Below are positions 2,408 to 21,824 of a stretch of DNA of 36,032 nucleotides, in pieces. The DNA comes from Granulicella sp. (GTDB taxonomy: Bacteria > Acidobacteriota > Terriglobia > Terriglobales > Acidobacteriaceae): the NCBI GenBank assembly GCA_027365345.1, contig DAHXNO010000057.1:1-36032 (forward strand). Direction: 5' to 3'. Positions within the stretch are counted from its first letter, which is position 1. Every line of letters begins with the position of its first letter. Both the position numbers and the translations under genes were made by a program. The notes beneath the pieces are model-generated. The model did no database searches. It saw only the letters and a program-made list of their open reading frames with translations, and had not been told where the DNA came from.

Positions 2408-2523
2408 TAGAGCATTCTTCCCGTCGGTGTAGTCCAGCAGATTGAGATGGATGGGCGTTTTCCCCAAGGAAAACGCCACCGCACAATCGATTTTGGATGC
2501 CCATCAACGGGGGAAATGCTCTA
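2408..2523. mobile_element. MITE-like element with terminal inverted repeats
   Basis: The segment starts with TAGAGCATT (2408-2416) and ends with its exact complement AATGCTCTA (2515-2523). The similarity continues inwards imperfectly for about 22 bases on each side. Inside, at 2454-2477, is a perfect palindrome with 10-base arms (GGCGTTTTCC, CCAA, GGAAAACGCC). There is no room for a transposase. The 116-base size, inverted ends and internal palindrome fit a miniature inverted-repeat element or REP-like repeat. I see no second copy in this window and no clear target-site duplication. Confidence 0.45.
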
Positions 2524-2581
2524 AGCTGCACCTCTTGGTCGCCCATGCCCCTCTGGAGAGATCCCATTGTGATAGAGCTGA

Positions 2582-2602
2582 CTCCAGAACTGTTTCCTGG
2601 AG
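2582..2602 (-). terminator. Hairpin downstream of the TonB-dependent receptor
   Basis: CTCCAG and CTGGAG bracket a short loop, giving a stem of about eight pairs with one G-T, 13 bases past the stop of the receptor gene. There is no T-run after it, so it is a weak terminator candidate at best. Confidence 0.28.
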
Positions 2603-2614
2603 CCAGCCCATACC

Positions 2615-5600
2615 TTAAAACACAAGACGCGCAGCTAATTGAATCTGGCGATTGCTATAGTCCTGCACTCCTGTGACTTTGCCAAAAGTCTCCGGATCAC
2701 TCATGCTACTGCCGGGATTGGTGAACTGAGGCGTGTTGAAGACGTTGAATGCGTCCCCGTGTAGTTCCAGATTGAAGCGGTTCGTAAGATGCACGTCCTT
2801 CTGCATGGAGAAAGCGACCGTTCGCTGTCCCGGCCCGTAGAGCTGATTCCGAAGAGCGGTTCCTGGACGCGTATACACAGTAATGGAATTCGCGTTCGTT
2901 GAAGTCGGAATATTGCTGGAGAAGGAAGCCGGATTGAACCAATACCCGTTGATGCTTTTCTTGTACTCGATCGGAGCTACTTCGTCCGGCTCGTTCGCTG
3001 AATCTGTAAACCCCGTGGATAAGTCAAATGGTTGCCCGCTCGACACCATGGCAATGATGTTGGTCTGCCAGCCGCCAATCAACCAGTCCATCTCACGAGA
3101 AATACCGTTTCCAAATCGTTGTCCCCTGCCAAACGGCAGAAAATAAACGGTCGAAAAACTGAAGACCTCCCGCTGATCTTGACCTGAATTGCCGTAGCTA
3201 GCCTTCGGATCATAATACAAGCAAAGCGTCCCGCAGCTATCATCCATGGTGTGCGACCATGTGTAGGACGCTGTAAGGATCAGATTGCTGGCTCGATGTG
3301 TAGCTGACAACTGCAAACCGTTGTAGCTCGAAGTTCCGTTGTAGTTCTCATAAGTGATCGTACCCAGATTCGGAAATGCCTGATTGCCTTCTCCGAGCGG
3401 CCCATTGCCAAACTGGAACAGATTGTAGTTATAGTAGTTTGCCATATGGTCAGCCTTGGTCCCAACATAGGCGATGTTCAGCACGTCCTTGGGGCTCAAC
3501 TGCTGGTCAAATTGCACGTTCCACTCTTGAATCTGGCTGTTCTTATTGTGCTGGTTGACTGCCAGAGTACTGAGGCCGTTGGGCGGTTCCGCTGGGTTGA
3601 AGTTTGGAAAGCCAGGCTGTGGCAGCGGAGTGGTCTGGTCAGCCGAACTGACTTTGCAGCTATCGAAACCATTCGTGCCCACGGTGGGCGTCTGGCCAGT
3701 GAAGGCGACGCAACTTCCCAGCCTCGCCTGGTAATCCACCGCTCCGCCGAAGGGCGGCTGCTGGCCCAGTTGGTTACTGATACCACCGTACGTTGGATAA
3801 TAGTAGATACCATAACCACCACGAACTACAGATCTACCGTCTCCATGCAGGTCATAGGCAAAGCCCAAACGTGGCCCAAAGTCGTCATAGTTCTGGTACA
3901 TGATGCTGCGGGAGACTCCGTTCTGTCCAGCCATTAGAACTTGACCGTTGCTGATGTCAAAGGATGCTTGTCTGTTGTGCATCTCATAGGGCCAGGTCAG
4001 CAGATCCCAGCGAAGACCAAGATTTACCGTCAAGCGCCTGTTTACTCGCCAGTCATCCTGAGCGAAAATACCGTCTTCCTGGCTCACGTTGGCGAAGTAT
4101 CCGTTCTGCGAACCAATTTCATAATTGTCCATGAAGGAAGCCAACAGATCAGACACCTCATAGCCGGTAAAGTCCTGTCCATTTCCAGAGATATTGAAGA
4201 AGCCCTTGCCGGCGATGGGACGAAAATATTCCATCTCGCGGCGAATGAGTGTGCCGCCTAACTTTATGGAATGGTTCCCACGCTCCCAGTCAAGGGTGTC
4301 CGTCCCCTCTATGTTGTTCTGCGGAACTGCATACAAGCCATAGTCGCCCGTGTAGGATATCTCCGTATTGTAGCCGCCGATCAATGCGCCGCCGCTGGTT
4401 TCGATATTACGATTGGCATTGACAATGCCAAGGTCTTTGGAGACCGGGATGCCGTACATCGGCGGCATGTAACCGTAGTTGTCTCGATTGTAGTTGAGGT
4501 GCGCTTCATTCACCACGTTTTGCGTGAAGATATGCGTGTAGCCAAGATCATAGCCACGTGCGTGGGTGTAGCTGGAGCCGGTGCCAAAACCAGCCGGAAG
4601 CTTGGCGAAAAAGGAGGACTTCGTTTCCACGGAATTATCATAGCTGAAACGCGCAAAAAATAGGTCTTTTGCGCTGGCATTCCAATCCATCCGAACATCA
4701 AAATCGTTGTAGTTAATGATATCTGTTTGAAAGGTTTCATAGTTGTCAAGGATGGAGTTCGTCGCCAGGCTTGGCGTTGGCAACGGGAACGCATTCAAAT
4801 AGTTCACTGCGGCCGGATTCAAACGAGATAGCGGAATGATATTGCCGGCAAATGGCTGGCAAGTAATCGGGTCGTAAATCACGCCATCTGGAGCCGCATT
4901 GCCTGGCTGACACAAATTGGAGTGGTTGATGAATTGACCACCCGTCAATGCCGGATTGAGCACTTCGGACAAATTGCCCTGGCGCATCAATGCAGTGGGG
5001 ACCGTCTGGAACGTGCTGCCAACCGGTTCCGACTCCCGCCATGCCTGGTAATCGCCGAACATGAAAAGCTTGTTCTTGACGATGGGAAAGCCCACATCCC
5101 CTCCCCATTGGTTGCGGCTGTAGGCGGGATTGGGGGTCGGCCCCGCGCCCAGGAACTGATAGTACGGATTGGAGTCGAATGCTCCGCTGCGATTATATTC
5201 AAACGCTGAACCATGGATCGAGTTGGTCCCGGATTTGATGGAACTGATCACGATGCCACCACCTGCGCGACCATATTGCGCCGGGGCCACGTCAGTTTCG
5301 ATCTTAAATTCCTGCGTAGCGAAGATGTCCGGAAAGAAGATCAAAGTGTTCATCAAATCGTCGTTGTTGTCCACGCCATCCAGAATGTAATTGTCCGCCG
5401 TTGGCTGCAAGCCGTTGACGGAAAGAGCCCCGCCTCCACTCTCGTTATAGCGAAATGTCTCTGCGTTGCCAGCCTCTCCACTTTGGGCGTTGCCGTAATT
5501 GCCACGTGTCACTCCCGGGGCCAACAGTGCGAGATTGGTAAAATTTAAACCATTTAACGGAAGCTGCGTGATTTGCTTGCCTTGGATGGTTTCTCCCAGA

Positions 5601-6322: not shown

Positions 6323-7570
6323 TCACACTGCAAATGGAATACTTCTGGGGAGGGAATCGCGTGGTGCTCCATGCTCCATGGTGGGCTGCTCTGCAAACTG
6401 GTTGGCTGCCTGGAGAACGCCGTACGGCCCACTGTGACCGACATAGGCCATCCGCCCGCCGTTGATCTCTGCGCCGTCCAGAAGGGAGCCTGGGATTGCG
6501 TTCACCATGCCCAGATCAGAAGAGACTGGAATATCGTCGATTGGCGAGCTGTAGTCATAAAACTCTTGCAAATGGCCATGGAGAAAATTGTGAGTCAGGT
6601 TCGGCATCAGGATATGGGTAAACCCAACAGCCTGACTGCGGGGATACGTGCGGCTTGCACCCTCTCCATAGCCTGCCCGCAGGTCCAGGAACAAGCTGCC
6701 TCTGTTCAGACGGGCTTGCCCGGAGCTAGAGTGATCGAAGAGGATGGCTGACCTGTAATAGCTGTCAGTTCCAGACTTGATGGAACTCTGGACGGTCGCG
6801 CCACCTGCATGGCTGAAGACAGTCGGCGCCATCGCTGTAGGCACACGGAACTCTTCGGTCACCCCCACCGACGGGAAGGAGATGACCGTGTTTAGCCGCG
6901 TGGGTTGGTCGTCCAGGCCGTCCAGCTCGCCGTGGGCAGCCAGCGCGAGCATTCCGTTCAAAGGCAGCGCAGTTCTACCCATTTCGCTACATCTCCAACC
7001 TTCGGCATTCTGGCCGGCATCCCGGGTCGCCCTACCGTATCTGCCACGGGGAACGCCGGGAGCAGGCAGGACGAGCCGGGTAGCGCTCGGGCCATCGAGC
7101 CGCAAACTCGAGACCCGCTTGACGTCAAGGACCGGACCGATCTCGGATCTCGCAGCGTTGACGGTCGGCGCGGCCTCAGTTATGAAAACGAAGGTCCCCG
7201 CCGGTTTCAATTGGAAGGTCAGCGCTGGAGCCGACAAAGCCGCCAAAGGAAAGATCAGTTCGGTCTTTCCAAACTTTCCAATCCCAGCCGTCGACACGTC
7301 CAGACCGTAGTTGTCGCGGGAAATGTCTTCATACTGGAACTGGCCCCCTCTATCGCTGACTGCTGTCCGCACAGCACCGTAATTGGAGTTCACCAGTGGA
7401 ACATTGGCTCCAGCAAACACGGCGCCGGGCTTGTCCTGAATAACGCCATGGAGTCGACCGAAATCGGACTGCGCCCGCAGCACAGTCCACGAAGCCGCAG
7501 GCAGACAAGAGACCACTCGAACGCTCGCCAATCCCAGTCCGGCGCCTTCGGCTCTTGATTGATGTTTCAT
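6323..7570 (-). pseudogene. Truncated Oar-type TonB-dependent receptor paralogue with internal deletion
   Basis: The 415 residues align along their length with the receptor at 2615-6037. The N-terminal regulatory-like domain is present (GRLHGVIQDKPGA). Plug motifs are present but altered (GELDGLDDQPTRLNT in place of ILDGVDNNDDLMNT), and IKSGTDSYYRSAI matches the relative's IKSGTNSIHGSAF. The sequence then jumps to YGEGASRTYPRSQAVGFTHI, which in the relative lies about 190 residues further on. It ends shortly after YVGHSGPYGVLQAANQ, lacking some 555 C-terminal residues and thus most of the barrel. The start at 7570 follows GGAGG. The frame is open throughout, but without a barrel it cannot be a working receptor. 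It is most likely a relic, or less likely a repurposed secreted plug-domain protein. Confidence 0.8.
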
Positions 7571-7714
7571 CGGTTTAGCCTCCAAGCTCCTTGCAGATCC
7601 CAGGAACCGCTTTGTGCGATGCCAAAGAAAAGATCTGTTGTAGGTTCGCTGCTAACGATGCGAAAACCTCTCCCCTCAACGCAATCGTCTTGCGTCCTTT
7701 TGTCGCTCAATTTT

Positions 7715-16319: not shown

Positions 16320-17180
16320 CTACCGTTCTCCCCAGTGGAGCTTGGCGCGCAGGACGTTGAAGAAGCCGTTGGGGTGAAGGCTGAGCAAGTGAACCTCGCG
16401 GTTGGAGCGGCGGCAGAGGATGCGGTCATTCAGGGCCAGTTCGACAGCCTCCTGGCCATCGACGGTGAGGTACATCTCCTGCGGAATGACGTCCACCACC
16501 ACCGCAACCTCGGTATCGCCGGGGAAGACGATGGGACGGATGGTGAGCAGGTGGGGGCAGATGGCAGAGAGGATCATCGCGTTGACGCCCGGGGTGAGGA
16601 TGGGTCCGTTGGCGGCCAGATTGTAAGCCGTGGACCCGGTGGGCGTGGAGACGATGACTCCGTCGGCGCGGAAACGTGCGACGAACTGGCCGTCGAGTTC
16701 GATGGCGAACTCGCCCATGCGGGCGATGGCTCCCTTGGAGAGAACCACGTCATTGAGCGCCTCCCACTCGCGCACGAGCGCTCCCTGGCGGAAGAGTTGA
16801 GCATGCATCAGTCTGCGGCTGTTGATGACGGCGGCGCCGGCAATCCATGCCTCCATGGTGTCATAGAGGTCGGCGATGGGAACCTCGGTGAGGAAGCCAA
16901 GCGACCCGAGGTTGACGGCGAGGATCGGCGTGGTGGTGGAAGCGAAAGCGCGGGCGGCGGAGAGGAGGGTTCCATCGCCACCCAGGCAGACGACTAGTTC
17001 CGGCGCATGGGAGGCCATCTCCGTGCGATTGACGGCGAGGTGGTTCAGGCCGGTGTACGAGACGCAGGTGGGCTCCAGGATGGGAGTAAGACCATGGTCT
17101 TGTAGCCAGTCGACAAGTTCGGTGAGAACGATCTTCAACTCCGGCTTCTGTGGCTTGGAGATGATGGCGACCTTGGGCAT
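16320..17180 (-). CDS. nadK: NAD kinase
   Basis: This enzyme phosphorylates NAD to NADP with ATP or polyphosphate in the cytoplasm. The 286-residue protein has the GGDGT motif (67-71), the LGFLTE segment, NDVVLSKG and the conserved STPTGSTAYNLAANGP loop, all diagnostic of NadK. The length is normal. It starts with ATG at 17180. It follows the 978-residue unknown protein by 227 bases and precedes the dehydrogenase. A tlyA-nadK association is common in bacteria; here the unknown gene separates the two. The 227-base gap upstream shows no clear promoter to me. Confidence 0.97.
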   Translation of the reverse strand: MPKVAIISKPQKPELKIVLTELVDWLQDHGLTPILEPTCVSYTGLNHLAVNRTEMASHAPELVVCLGGDGTLLSAARAFASTTTPILAVNLGSLGFLTEVPIADLYDTMEAWIAGAAVINSRRLMHAQLFRQGALVREWEALNDVVLSKGAIARMGEFAIELDGQFVARFRADGVIVSTPTGSTAYNLAANGPILTPGVNAMILSAICPHLLTIRPIVFPGDTEVAVVVDVIPQEMYLTVDGQEAVELALNDRILCRRSNREVHLLSLHPNGFFNVLRAKLHWGER

Positions 17181-17407: not shown

Positions 17408-20344
17408 TTACTCTGCTCCGGGTGGAACAGTCTGCGGGGATGCGGTGGTGGGCGCAGCCGCAGGGGTCTGTTGGGTTGTGGAGGGCATCTGAGACTGCAC
17501 CGCCGACGGCGTTAGCGTTGGAGTTGGTGTGGTTGGCCTGGGCGCCGGACCGCTGAAGGGCATGGAGATTGGGGTGGCCTGGGTTGCACCTGTCGCGGAG
17601 GGCAGTGTCGGCGCCCCGGATGATTTGATGGCCGCCGGTTGGACCGCCGCGCCGGAGCTTGCTGGTTGGGAAGGCGCAGGAGCGGACGCAGGCTGTGCGG
17701 AGCGATTGGGAACGGCGGCCGAGGTGGATGGTTGCGAAGCCGAGGCCGAAGCTGAGGCCGATGACGGCTGCGGATTTACGGCTGCAGTAGTTGACGGCTG
17801 AACCTCCGCGGGCGCAGGGAGCGCAGCCGGCGGCGGGGGCGCGGGCTTTGGGATGGGTGTGGACAGCGTGAGCGTCGCTATCTCGGTGGGATCATCGCGC
17901 AGCTTGAAGTAGAGGGTCTTCCCATCGGAAGGGGTGGGGACGTTGAAGCTGGAGTCGGTGAAGCCGATGGGAACCTCAGTGGGATGGGTGAAGTCCCTGG
18001 CGGCGCTGAAGTATTGCGCCAGATAGAGATCATCCCCCTGGATGGTGCAGGTGGGATCCGCGAGCGTGGTGCAGTGAACGGCCGTGATGTGAGGCCTGCG
18101 GACGAGGGTGCCGAGGGTAATCCATGCGCCGTCGGCTCCGTCAGCCGCGACAGCGCGGATGCGCAGCTTGCCGAAGGCGGATCTGCCGAAGGCGCGAAGA
18201 AGATTGAGGGAAGCCACGGCGGTGTGTTCGTCCTGCAGGACCAGGCTGTTGTCCCGGAGGGATAGTTCTGTGCTGAGGGCTCCGTCCGCGGTTGCGACTT
18301 GAATTTTCTCTGTGCGGGGGAAGTTTGTTCGAGTCTGGACCACGAAGGTGAGCGTGCCGTCCAGCGGAATATCGCCGGCGTCCGACAGGGTAACCGGGAG
18401 GCCGCCGCGTGGCTGTGCGGGGTTGGCGTGGACGTAGACCAGTTGCAGGCTGGGGCGGGCGGCGAGGACCTGGATGGAGACGTTCCGGGTTCGACCGTCC
18501 TTGAGTCTTACGATGGCCTGAGATCCGAAGCTGGGAGAGACAGCGGATTGGGCCTGGAGTTGCAGCGTTCCAGGCTGGCTGGCGTCATCGTCGGCGTTGC
18601 TGTTCGAGGAGGGGATCACGGGCGTGAAGGTTTGATGATCGATCTCGACCGAGGCGACGTTCTGCAGGCCCTGACCGGTGAGGGTGGCGACGTAGTCGCC
18701 CGTATGGATCCTGAGTTCGCTCAAGGTAATGTCATTGGTGTAGACGGTGAGCGGAAGGGTAACCGGCTTGGGTTCGCCATACTGCTGGATGGCGAGCGAG
18801 TAACTGCCCGGTGCAACGCCTTTGAGCGAGAGGTTGAGATCCAGCATGGCTTGAGCCGACCGCTGGCCGCTGGATTGAGGCTTGAAGGCTACATGGCCAG
18901 CCTCTCCGGCGGCGCTGGTGAGCTGGATGTGCTGCACGCAGCCTGTGCCTTCCGCCGTGAGGGAGAGATGGTTAGCCAATCCGGCGAGCAGTTGCGTGTC
19001 ACCCAGGATCTTCCAGTCTTTGCCGGCTGTCTGCTGAACAGTGAGGGTGGGCCCCTGAAAGGGGGTGAAACCCCAGTAGCCGCGGACCGTGCCGGAGAGG
19101 AGGAGGCTGGAGGCGGGGGCGGGAGGGCCAGCGGCAGCATCGGGAGCGAGCGGCCAGGCACGGTCGGGATTCAGCCTTCGCCGTCCATCGTCTTTGGCCA
19201 CGACCAGGCCTCCGGCGGCGGCGTCTGGCACGATCGCGAGGTCGGTAGAGCCCGCGCTGCGATTCAGGTGCAGGACCATATCATGCGCGAAGCCGGTGGA
19301 GAACACGAGCGGCGCTCCAACCAGCGGAAGGACCATCCGAGGTTGAGCCAGGCAGACCACCTCCTGGAGATCGGGAGGGCGCAGGTGCGGGGGTTTGACG
19401 CTCTGGATCGCAGGAAGACCTACGACGATGACCGACATCGGGTTATGGAAGGAGGGCGGCTTGTTGAGCTTGAGATTCAGGGTGTCTCCCTGCGGAAAGC
19501 TAAGGCCAGGGATGTACTGATACTGCGCGGTGTGCAGACTGCCTACAAGGGCGATCAGGTCCACGACCGTGCCGACGTAGGCGGAGTAGTAGCCTCCGCC
19601 AGCCGCCTGGGTGGTGGAGGCGGTATTAATGAAATCAGAGGAGGGCCCGCCGGAGAGCGCCTCCGCGATGCCCTGCCCATGGCCATCGTTGAGGATGACC
19701 GGCGCCCGGGATTGGGTGAGACAGGTGACCTGCTCCTCTACCGGCTGACTAAAGCATGCGGCGTTGGGTTGCAGGGCCAGCGTAGCGGCGAGTTTGGCGG
19801 AGCGCTGCTGGATGGTCTTCGCATCAGCGTCGGCAACGCTCTGCATGGCCTGGAGGTAGTGCTGGATGCGTTCCTCCTCGAAGGATGCCTCGTTGAGGTC
19901 GGCGTCGGCGCGGATAAAAGTTCCGGGGTTACCCCGCACGGCAGAGCGAAGCGTCTTGAAGTCGCCGCCGGTCTTGGGAGCGATGAAGAGCAATGCCTGC
20001 TGGGCTCCTTGAGGGACCACGACGGTAGTGCCTTCGTCGGTCTTGCGACTCCAGGTATCGATGGCGGTGAACCAGTTATCCGGGGGCTCGTTGGTGGCTC
20101 CGCGAAGGAAGGCAACGACGAGCAAGAAGTGATTGGACTGGGTGCGAGGGAGGTCTGCCTTGACCCAAAGACGATCTCCGGGTTGGAGGTCAGGAACCTG
20201 CGCGATGGGAAGCGTCAGGCCGTTGCGAGTGACTTGCACCTGGATTTTAGGTCCGACGAGATCAAAACGGGCGCCGTCAGCGCGGAGCGCCGAGGGAAGG
20301 AATAGTGCAACGAGAGAGATTGCTACGACTCCAAAGGCCTTCAT
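17408..20344 (-). CDS. Large secreted protein of unknown function with Pro/Ala/Ser/Thr-rich tail
   Basis: I do not recognise this 978-residue protein. A signal peptide is clear (hydrophobic residues 5-18, likely cleavage after ALRA at 22). Residues about 25-500 alternate short beta-like segments with few charged runs. Around 545-640 a segment (LSELRIHTGDYVATLTGQGL, then VASVEIDHQTF) resembles an IPT/TIG or other Ig-like fold, as does the following region to about 820. From about 830 to the end it is low-complexity Pro, Ala, Ser, Thr and Gln, with an SASASASAS run, as in wall- or surface-spanning linkers. GGAAGAG lies directly before the ATG. It sits between tlyA and nadK. A cell-surface or periplasmic structural or binding role is inference. 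The long opposite-strand frame here lacks a protein-like composition. Confidence 0.82.
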   Translation of the reverse strand: MKAFGVVAISLVALFLPSALRADGARFDLVGPKIQVQVTRNGLTLPIAQVPDLQPGDRLWVKADLPRTQSNHFLLVVAFLRGATNEPPDNWFTAIDTWSRKTDEGTTVVVPQGAQQALLFIAPKTGGDFKTLRSAVRGNPGTFIRADADLNEASFEEERIQHYLQAMQSVADADAKTIQQRSAKLAATLALQPNAACFSQPVEEQVTCLTQSRAPVILNDGHGQGIAEALSGGPSSDFINTASTTQAAGGGYYSAYVGTVVDLIALVGSLHTAQYQYIPGLSFPQGDTLNLKLNKPPSFHNPMSVIVVGLPAIQSVKPPHLRPPDLQEVVCLAQPRMVLPLVGAPLVFSTGFAHDMVLHLNRSAGSTDLAIVPDAAAGGLVVAKDDGRRRLNPDRAWPLAPDAAAGPPAPASSLLLSGTVRGYWGFTPFQGPTLTVQQTAGKDWKILGDTQLLAGLANHLSLTAEGTGCVQHIQLTSAAGEAGHVAFKPQSSGQRSAQAMLDLNLSLKGVAPGSYSLAIQQYGEPKPVTLPLTVYTNDITLSELRIHTGDYVATLTGQGLQNVASVEIDHQTFTPVIPSSNSNADDDASQPGTLQLQAQSAVSPSFGSQAIVRLKDGRTRNVSIQVLAARPSLQLVYVHANPAQPRGGLPVTLSDAGDIPLDGTLTFVVQTRTNFPRTEKIQVATADGALSTELSLRDNSLVLQDEHTAVASLNLLRAFGRSAFGKLRIRAVAADGADGAWITLGTLVRRPHITAVHCTTLADPTCTIQGDDLYLAQYFSAARDFTHPTEVPIGFTDSSFNVPTPSDGKTLYFKLRDDPTEIATLTLSTPIPKPAPPPPAALPAPAEVQPSTTAAVNPQPSSASASASASQPSTSAAVPNRSAQPASAPAPSQPASSGAAVQPAAIKSSGAPTLPSATGATQATPISMPFSGPAPRPTTPTPTLTPSAVQSQMPSTTQQTPAAAPTTASPQTVPPGAE

Positions 20345-20459: not shown

Positions 20460-21233
20460 TCAGGCCCAGCGGAGATGGAGGAGAAACTCCCGATTGCCTT
20501 CCATGCCCAGGATGGGTGAGTCCATGGTGGAGAGCACCTGGCCGTTCAAGGCTTGGACGGCGAACTTGACACGCTCGAGGGCGAGTTGATGGGCGGCCGG
20601 GTCGCGGACGATTCCGCCCTTGCCGACGTGTTCGCGGCCGGCTTCAAACTGCGGCTTGACCAGCAAGACGGCGTCTCCGTTCCAGCGCTGATCCGCCGCA
20701 GCCAGCGCGGCGGTGACGGCGGGCAGGACCAGCGTGGCGGAGATAAAGCTGACGTCCATGGCGAAGAAACGGATGGGTTGAGGAGAGCGGGAGAGAAGCT
20801 CACCCGGAGTGAGGAGGCGGGCGTTGGTTCGCTCCATCAGGGTGACGCGGGGATCGGAGCGAAGTTTTTGGTGGATCTGGCCGTAACCGGTGTCAATGGC
20901 CAGAACGCTGGAGGCTCCATGCTGCAACAGGCAGTCGGTAAAGCCGCCGGTGGAGGCTCCGATATCGGCGGTGGCGAGGTCCTGGACGGGGATGCTCCAG
21001 GTGGCGAGAGCGGCTTGAAGTTTGAGGCCGCCTCGGGAGACGTAGCGCAGGTCTTCGCCGAGCAGGCGGATGGCCGCATCGGCGGCTACCTGGGTTCCTG
21101 GCTTGTCCACGCGTTGTTCCTCGACGAGGACGCGGCCGGCCAGGATGATGGCCTGGGCGCGCTCACGGGAGGCAGCCAGGGAGCGGTCCACCAGCAGCTT
21201 ATCGAGACGGAGTTTGTCGAGACGGAGCTTCAT
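20460..21233 (-). CDS. tlyA: TlyA-family rRNA 2'-O-methyltransferase (S4 plus FtsJ-like domains)
   Basis: The 257-residue protein has an S4 RNA-binding domain (about 8-66, LRLDKLLVDRSLAASRERAQ) and an FtsJ-like methyltransferase domain. The SAM site is ADIGASTGGFTD (89-100); Asp160 in MDVSF and Lys193 in LLVKPQFE fit the K-D-K-E catalytic set, with GNREFLLHL at the end. TlyA methylates ribosomal RNA; some members are annotated as haemolysin A. The ATG at 21233 was chosen since upstream codons show no homology. The N-terminus has an in-frame duplication, LRLDKLRLDK. The ribosome-binding site is weak. Confidence 0.93.
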   Translation of the reverse strand: MKLRLDKLRLDKLLVDRSLAASRERAQAIILAGRVLVEEQRVDKPGTQVAADAAIRLLGEDLRYVSRGGLKLQAALATWSIPVQDLATADIGASTGGFTDCLLQHGASSVLAIDTGYGQIHQKLRSDPRVTLMERTNARLLTPGELLSRSPQPIRFFAMDVSFISATLVLPAVTAALAAADQRWNGDAVLLVKPQFEAGREHVGKGGIVRDPAAHQLALERVKFAVQALNGQVLSTMDSPILGMEGNREFLLHLRWA

Positions 21234-21824
21234 GAGTACGGCGCAGGCGGACCCTTCGCAACTCGATAACCGTTGTGCGGCCCATTGGCCGATCTTTCCA
21301 CATGGCATCTGAAATGGAACGTAGGGAAAGGCTGCAGAAGGAAGCCTATAAAAGAGTTGCTCCCAGAGACAGAATAGCGGAGGATGGGCAACCATGGGCC
21401 GGAGGTATACGGATAAGATGCAAGACCCAGGGAATGAAATGGGAGGGGCAGCCGGGCGGCGGAATGCGCCGAAGCACACGGGCCTGGTGGCGGCCAACGC
21501 GGCATTGCCGTGGATTTTGCGCCACAGGAGGGTGATGCCGCGTCTGCTGGAGACGCTGCCGGGAGGAAGGTTTCGGCAGTGCGGAAGCCGCCGGGATGGG
21601 CCTTGCGGAACTGAAGGCGTACGCCTGCCTCGTTGCGCTAAGGAATGACGTACACTGAGCATTCAGAGGGCAGGGCATTCAGAGGGCGGGCTTTCAGAAG
21701 GCTGAGTAGTCCAAGGCGCAGGGTTCTCTGGAATGAGGCTGGAAGAGCACGGGTTCCAGCTTTGATGCGTAACGGCTGCCTGCTTCCGCATCCTGGGGAC
21801 AATCCATTCGAGCGAGTACGTTCT
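21234..21824. other. Intergenic region between divergent tlyA and sigma-factor genes
   Basis: About 590 bases lie between the divergently transcribed tlyA and the ECF sigma-factor gene. Open frames exist on both strands but are rich in Arg, Pro and Gly with no protein-like pattern, so I take them as non-coding. The only structure I can support is a three-copy 16-base tandem repeat at 21659-21706. Promoters for both genes should lie here, but I see no confident consensus. Confidence 0.5.
21659..21706. repeat. Three-copy 16-bp tandem repeat upstream of the sigma-factor gene
   Basis: The unit GCATTCAGAGGGCAGG (21659-21674) is repeated at 21675-21690 with one change, and a more diverged copy follows at 21691-21706 (CTTTCAGAAGGCTGAG). 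It ends about 118 bases before the sigma-factor start. The period is regular. It could be a regulator-binding array or simple slippage. Confidence 0.7.

Follow-up and report, generated by a model that had tools for sequence, protein, structure and literature searches.

The window, i.e. the whole stretch of 36,032 nucleotides that was analysed, carries on its minus strand a gene of 978 codons with an ATG start (17408-20344), which we call X. The original prediction gave no strand for it; its size and position are correct. Residues 1-22 (20279-20344, minus strand) read as a putative Sec signal peptide, with a lysine at position 2, a hydrophobic core at residues 5-19 that is helical in the structural model, and A22 before D23. 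The sequence thus looks like the signal peptide described earlier, and the protein would be exported via Sec. Compared with a single relative of 70% identity (L087, taken to be the same genome as L079 because the two yield identical numbers), X has a dN/dS of 0.22 overall, with values of 0.079 for residues 23-314, 0.25 for residues 315-834 and 0.46 for the tail. X is under purifying selection. The overall value, together with the relatives encoded in 109 stretches of the genome collection, rules out a chance open reading frame. We note that X is overlapped by an antisense frame of 668 aa (18299-20305, plus strand); judging by the low dN/dS on the minus strand, this looks like a shadow frame.

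The AlphaFold2 model of X, calculated from 75 of the 82 alignment rows (L033, L043, L051, L077, L083, L085 and L086 were left out, and a second alignment also omitted L024 and L082), has a pLDDT of 86.8 and a pTM of 0.65, and predicts a beta module with a helical insert followed by five Ig-like domains. The N-terminal module (residues 23-314; 19403-20278, minus strand) stands out by column identity and dN/dS as well as in the model. It is predicted to be mainly beta at residues 23-128 and 272-314, around a mostly helical insert (residues 129-271; 19532-19960, minus strand) that contains C197 and C208 and is of low confidence at residues ~211-270 (block pLDDT 47-71). Modelled alone, the module has a pLDDT of 71.7, and a Foldseek search of the PDB with it gave 0 matches with E <= 0.001. 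The best VIA match was 2zag_B (STT3; Z 5.2, rmsd 4.0, 99 residues aligned). Most VIA matches span from near the start of the module as far as residue 292 and align about 75-110 residues; such spans would suit a single Ig/Fn3-like sandwich into which the helical insert is placed.

The model supports five Ig-like beta-sandwich domains in residues 315-834 (17843-19402, minus strand), at 315-438, 439-537, 538-630, 631-750 and 751-834 (borders inferred). In the fold comparison, residues 439-537 matched a biofilm-associated protein (7c7u_B; Z 8.3, rmsd 2.6, 87 aligned) and a bacterial alpha-2-macroglobulin (4rtd; Z 8.0, rmsd 2.8, 89 aligned); for such single domains a Z below 8 may reflect a common arrangement, and a Z of 8 was reached by 7 out of 975 chains. 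Plexin IPT domains are also among the best matches of the Ig-like domains. The Ig/IPT-like pieces seen in the original prediction are in this respect borne out, but they have no counterpart in Pfam: no Ig, IPT or TIG profile came above its curated cut-off, the only matches being MBG and Sharpin_PH (E 0.13 and below cut-off in either case), of which MBG was the best with 13.2 bits against a cut-off of 23.3. For the whole model, TM-scores among the 50 Foldseek matches listed did not exceed 0.15 (query) or 0.21 (target), i.e. so low that these matches mean Ig-like stacking only. In its consecutive Ig-like domains, with single-domain Z values of about 8, X resembles multi-Ig/IPT rods such as plexin IPT domains, bacterial alpha-2-macroglobulin and SGBP-B of Bacteroides. 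It differs from them in that no PDB chain matches it significantly in sequence, that the whole-model TM-scores stay at or below 0.21 among the matches listed, and that its N-terminal module with the helical insert was matched confidently to no solved fold.

Searches with X against Pfam, NCBIfam, PHROGs, PADLOC and the PDB sequences gave no significant match, as the earlier failure to link it to a known family had implied. A profile search, the kind of check proposed earlier, gave a best E of 0.57 against PDB sequences. As no PADLOC or PHROGs profile matched at E <= 1, a defence or phage origin is unlikely. The family was not encountered in the accessible text of the open-licence literature searched, including PMC7315648 and PMC7074687, nor was a paper on GWxTD found in the open-licence literature searched. 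The relatives of X apparently constitute a large, undescribed acidobacterial family.

The conservation of the protein is unevenly distributed. Mean column identity is 67% in the N-terminal module as compared to 44% for residues 1-834, and 44 columns of the module are invariant; Gly, Pro, aromatic residues or Cys account for 24 of them, and polar residues, among them two Asp and two Arg, also occur. It is conspicuous that X has six cysteines only and that all are invariant wherever a row has a residue at the position (C in 81 out of 82 rows, or 80 out of 82 for C758 and C766, the remainder being gaps). Such a pattern suits an oxidising compartment, and X probably carries disulphides. The C-terminal tail (residues 835-978; 17411-17842, minus strand) shows the low complexity that had been claimed for it: Pro, Ala, Ser, Thr and Gln make up 82% of it versus 40% of residues 23-834, and an SASASASAS run lies at residues 862-870. 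Across the family, counted after L033, L077, L086, L043 and L052 had been dropped, the tail is at least 20 aa long in 43 out of 77 rows (at least 60% P/A/S/T/Q in 42 of these 43) and at most 10 aa long in 32, a distribution that points to an optional part of the protein. The window copy has no cysteine before residue 197 and hence no lipobox cysteine, so it is unlikely to be a lipoprotein; the strict lipobox pattern occurs in 4 out of 77 rows. In four copies of a second type (L028, L042, L044 and L086) clustered cysteines lie at the end of the signal-peptide core, and these copies might be lipoproteins despite missing the strict pattern. No lipobox, sorting signal or barrel was recognised as an anchor in the window copy, so that periplasm and surface are indistinguishable as its location.

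The scan of the genome collection with X returned 148 stretches, including the 109 that encode relatives, and the best 80 of these 109 were analysed as loci. Five of the 80 carry proteobacterial labels (L029, L071, L072, L073 and L078, all Pseudomonadota), the other labels being acidobacterial or unspecific. L029 has flanks with 74-85% matches to acidobacterial neighbours and is thus probably a contig assigned to the wrong group; the remaining four would be either mislabelled or transferred. In a sample of 150 genomes of the order, the X profile matched 104, i.e. 102 out of 136 in the bacterial family of the window (f1), with 1-3 matches per matching genome, and 2 out of 14 in f2, where the matches are weak (E 4e-8 and 2e-7). 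Phylum-wide, 12 out of 119 genomes matched, 9 from f1 and 3 from f23. The f23 proteins are open frames of 869-906 residues with genome-wide E values of 1.2e-20 to 2.5e-15; L094 matches the profile in both halves, and in L095 and L096 the match sets in at around profile position 223-250. Within the genus of the window 27 out of 28 genomes match, and the own genome has one more copy, which seems to be divided over two contigs, at the end of C57 and the start of C156. Judged by these searches, the X family is largely confined to one bacterial family, with remote kin of similar length in f23. The proposal of a lineage-specific protein holds to that extent, but must accommodate the f23 kin, the wide spread of the family and the second copy in the own genome.

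X lies between nadK (16320-17180, minus strand; Pfam NAD kinase), 227 bp beyond its end, and a tlyA-type rRNA methyltransferase gene (20460-21662, minus strand), whose open reading frame is 115 bp from its start. Pfam detected FtsJ and S4 domains in the latter, so that both neighbours are as originally named. The tlyA frame as called has 400 aa, with S4 starting at residue 151, and many congener frames, compared by means of a query cut at residue 135, have 250-300 aa. Because of the late S4 domain and the shorter congener frames, it is probably over-extended at its 5' end, with the true start downstream of 21662. The 5' extension also overlaps the start of a plus-strand frame at 21645.

The survey of this slot covered 28 genomes, five of which (G012, G268, G270, G271 and G011) were unassessable. 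In 15 of the 23 assessable congeners tlyA lies directly beside nadK (<200 bp), in agreement with the original remark that the two are often neighbours, and X adjoins tlyA in 5. The order tlyA-X-nadK is consequently not conserved. It was seen in four genomes (the own genome, G269, G003 and G001), further open reading frames being present on both sides of X in G001, and in G010 tlyA and X are followed by the contig end. Three more genomes (G004, G266 and G267) have a tlyA-nadK gap of 1.5-2.2 kb without X, which in G004 holds a partial second match to tlyA. Of the 80 collection loci, some of which extend only a short way beyond X, L005 and L079 have X between tlyA and nadK; by their identical numbers they appear to be genomes G001 and G003. 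At L099 the slot holds, besides X, two extra frames (2502-4355, 617 aa, and 7200-7670, 156 aa). It may be a place that readily takes up insertions.

As the arrangement is a minority one in the genus, the placement of X between tlyA and nadK looks derived. In the X tree the window copy, L079, L014 and L005 are grouped (SH-aLRT 97), which would suit one move into the slot; the picture is muddied by L014, which joins the window copy and L079 with a support of 82 but has a long branch and lies outside the slot. Functional coupling of X to tlyA or nadK is unlikely, the position being shared by a minority of congeners.

Many X loci have another arrangement, in which co-directional genes for an HlyD-type adaptor and an ABC ATPase lie upstream of X, together with a divergent GWxTD-domain gene. 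The second copy of the own genome is in this HlyD-ATPase-X arrangement. The ATPase, whose sequence we read as LolD/MacB-like, belongs to a loose cluster of which one representative was scanned with Pfam (ABC_tran). It precedes X in 26 loci, of which 23 were kept as HlyD-ATPase-X. L023, L024 and L082 were dropped, as they have between ATPase and X an open reading frame that, in our judgement, resembles PhoU, and their ATPase is for that reason probably PstB. The ATPase-X gap is 54-288 bp in 17 of the 23 kept loci, 0.5-0.7 kb in L016 and L043 and 1.4-3.7 kb in L013, L029 and L040; in L035 the called frames overlap. In six loci (L053, L055, L059, L060, L064 and L075) X is followed on its own strand by a gene from one and the same cluster, the L075 member being a glycosyltransferase (Glyco_trans_1_3).

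To the following reading we give an even chance. X would be exported by Sec as a soluble, probably disulphide-bearing rod into the periplasm or onto the cell surface. Its conserved N-terminal module would act as the functional head that binds an envelope partner or ligand, with the five Ig-like domains as a spacer and the tail as a variable, flexible extension. The other copy found in the genus would be the one behind the HlyD-type adaptor and the ABC ATPase, and the window copy a relocated paralogue, i.e. a duplicate moved between tlyA and nadK and probably without a functional tie to either.

An alternative that we consider unlikely assigns X to a type VII (MacB/LolCDE-like) ABC system as its dedicated partner in the periplasm; the system would consist of HlyD, the ATPase and a permease encoded elsewhere. 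The gene order on one strand with its mostly short ATPase-X gap points this way. Moreover, of the 100 genomes that hold both genes, 51 have X on the strand of HlyD and no more than 6 kb behind it, including 11/11 in the genus of the window (g1) and 34/35 in g10. The own genome has 15 MacB_PCD matches, none on C57 or C156, the contigs of the HlyD-ATPase pair and the second X copy. Two contigs carry tandem MacB_PCD permease genes (L102 3781-6301 on C69 and L103 3060-5118 on C122), and the stretches examined around them (C122 has 5120 bp) hold neither an ATPase nor an adaptor that resembles those linked to X; these permeases are possible partners in trans. On the other hand, X is away from HlyD in the remaining 49 genomes, and 46 out of 69 collection loci (those that have an ATPase match or extend 1.8 kb or more upstream; L023, L024 and L082 are treated as lacking the ATPase) have no such ATPase before X. 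HlyD (E <= 1e-60, identity down to 40%) is present in 145 out of 150 genomes; of the 46 genomes that lack X, 45 have it, i.e. the transporter does not need X. The linkage is seen in four genera only (besides g1 and g10, 5/12 in g89 and 1/1 in g9), and the genes on the far side of X, which we take to be an APC-type permease pair and further genes, are conserved too, so that the coupling of HlyD and X is supported weakly and the linkage may amount to no more than shared gene order. Neither HlyD nor the ATPase is linked to the window copy.

The partners of type VII ABC systems given in PMC12646458 are EnvC, LolA, TolC with MacA, and TesA. Taken by that general description, X is similar in being exported and, in part of its family, encoded beside an adaptor and an ABC ATPase; it differs in that the linkage is confined to some genera. 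The boldest form of this alternative, to which we assign a smaller chance, would make the X family a novel kind of type VII ABC partner in the periplasm of Acidobacteriaceae. Its N-terminal fold would be new, it would work with an orphan HlyD-ATPase pair whose permease is supplied in trans, and the window copy would be a specialised relocated duplicate.

It is likewise improbable that X acts as an adhesin of the surface or as a matrix protein, with an Ig rod that projects the N-terminal head and a Pro/Ala tail that retains the protein in the envelope. The fold matches to Ig-like rods do include biofilm-associated and S-layer proteins, and the low-complexity tail would fit. However, no anchor or outer-membrane sorting signal was recognised in X, 32 out of 77 rows have no tail or one of 10 aa or less, and the strong conservation of the head contrasts with the variability of many adhesin heads. 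We consider it very unlikely that X is a secreted enzyme whose active site, located in the N-terminal module, escaped detection: the polar residues among the invariant columns of the module would allow for one, but more than half of these columns are of the Gly, Pro, aromatic or Cys kind, and X matched no enzyme family or convincing enzyme fold.

We return to the exported rod with a binding head. The X family, present in 102 of the 136 sampled genomes of its bacterial family, is absent from the profile libraries searched. If the head does bind a component of the envelope or act for a transporter, X would provide a handle on acidobacterial envelope biology.
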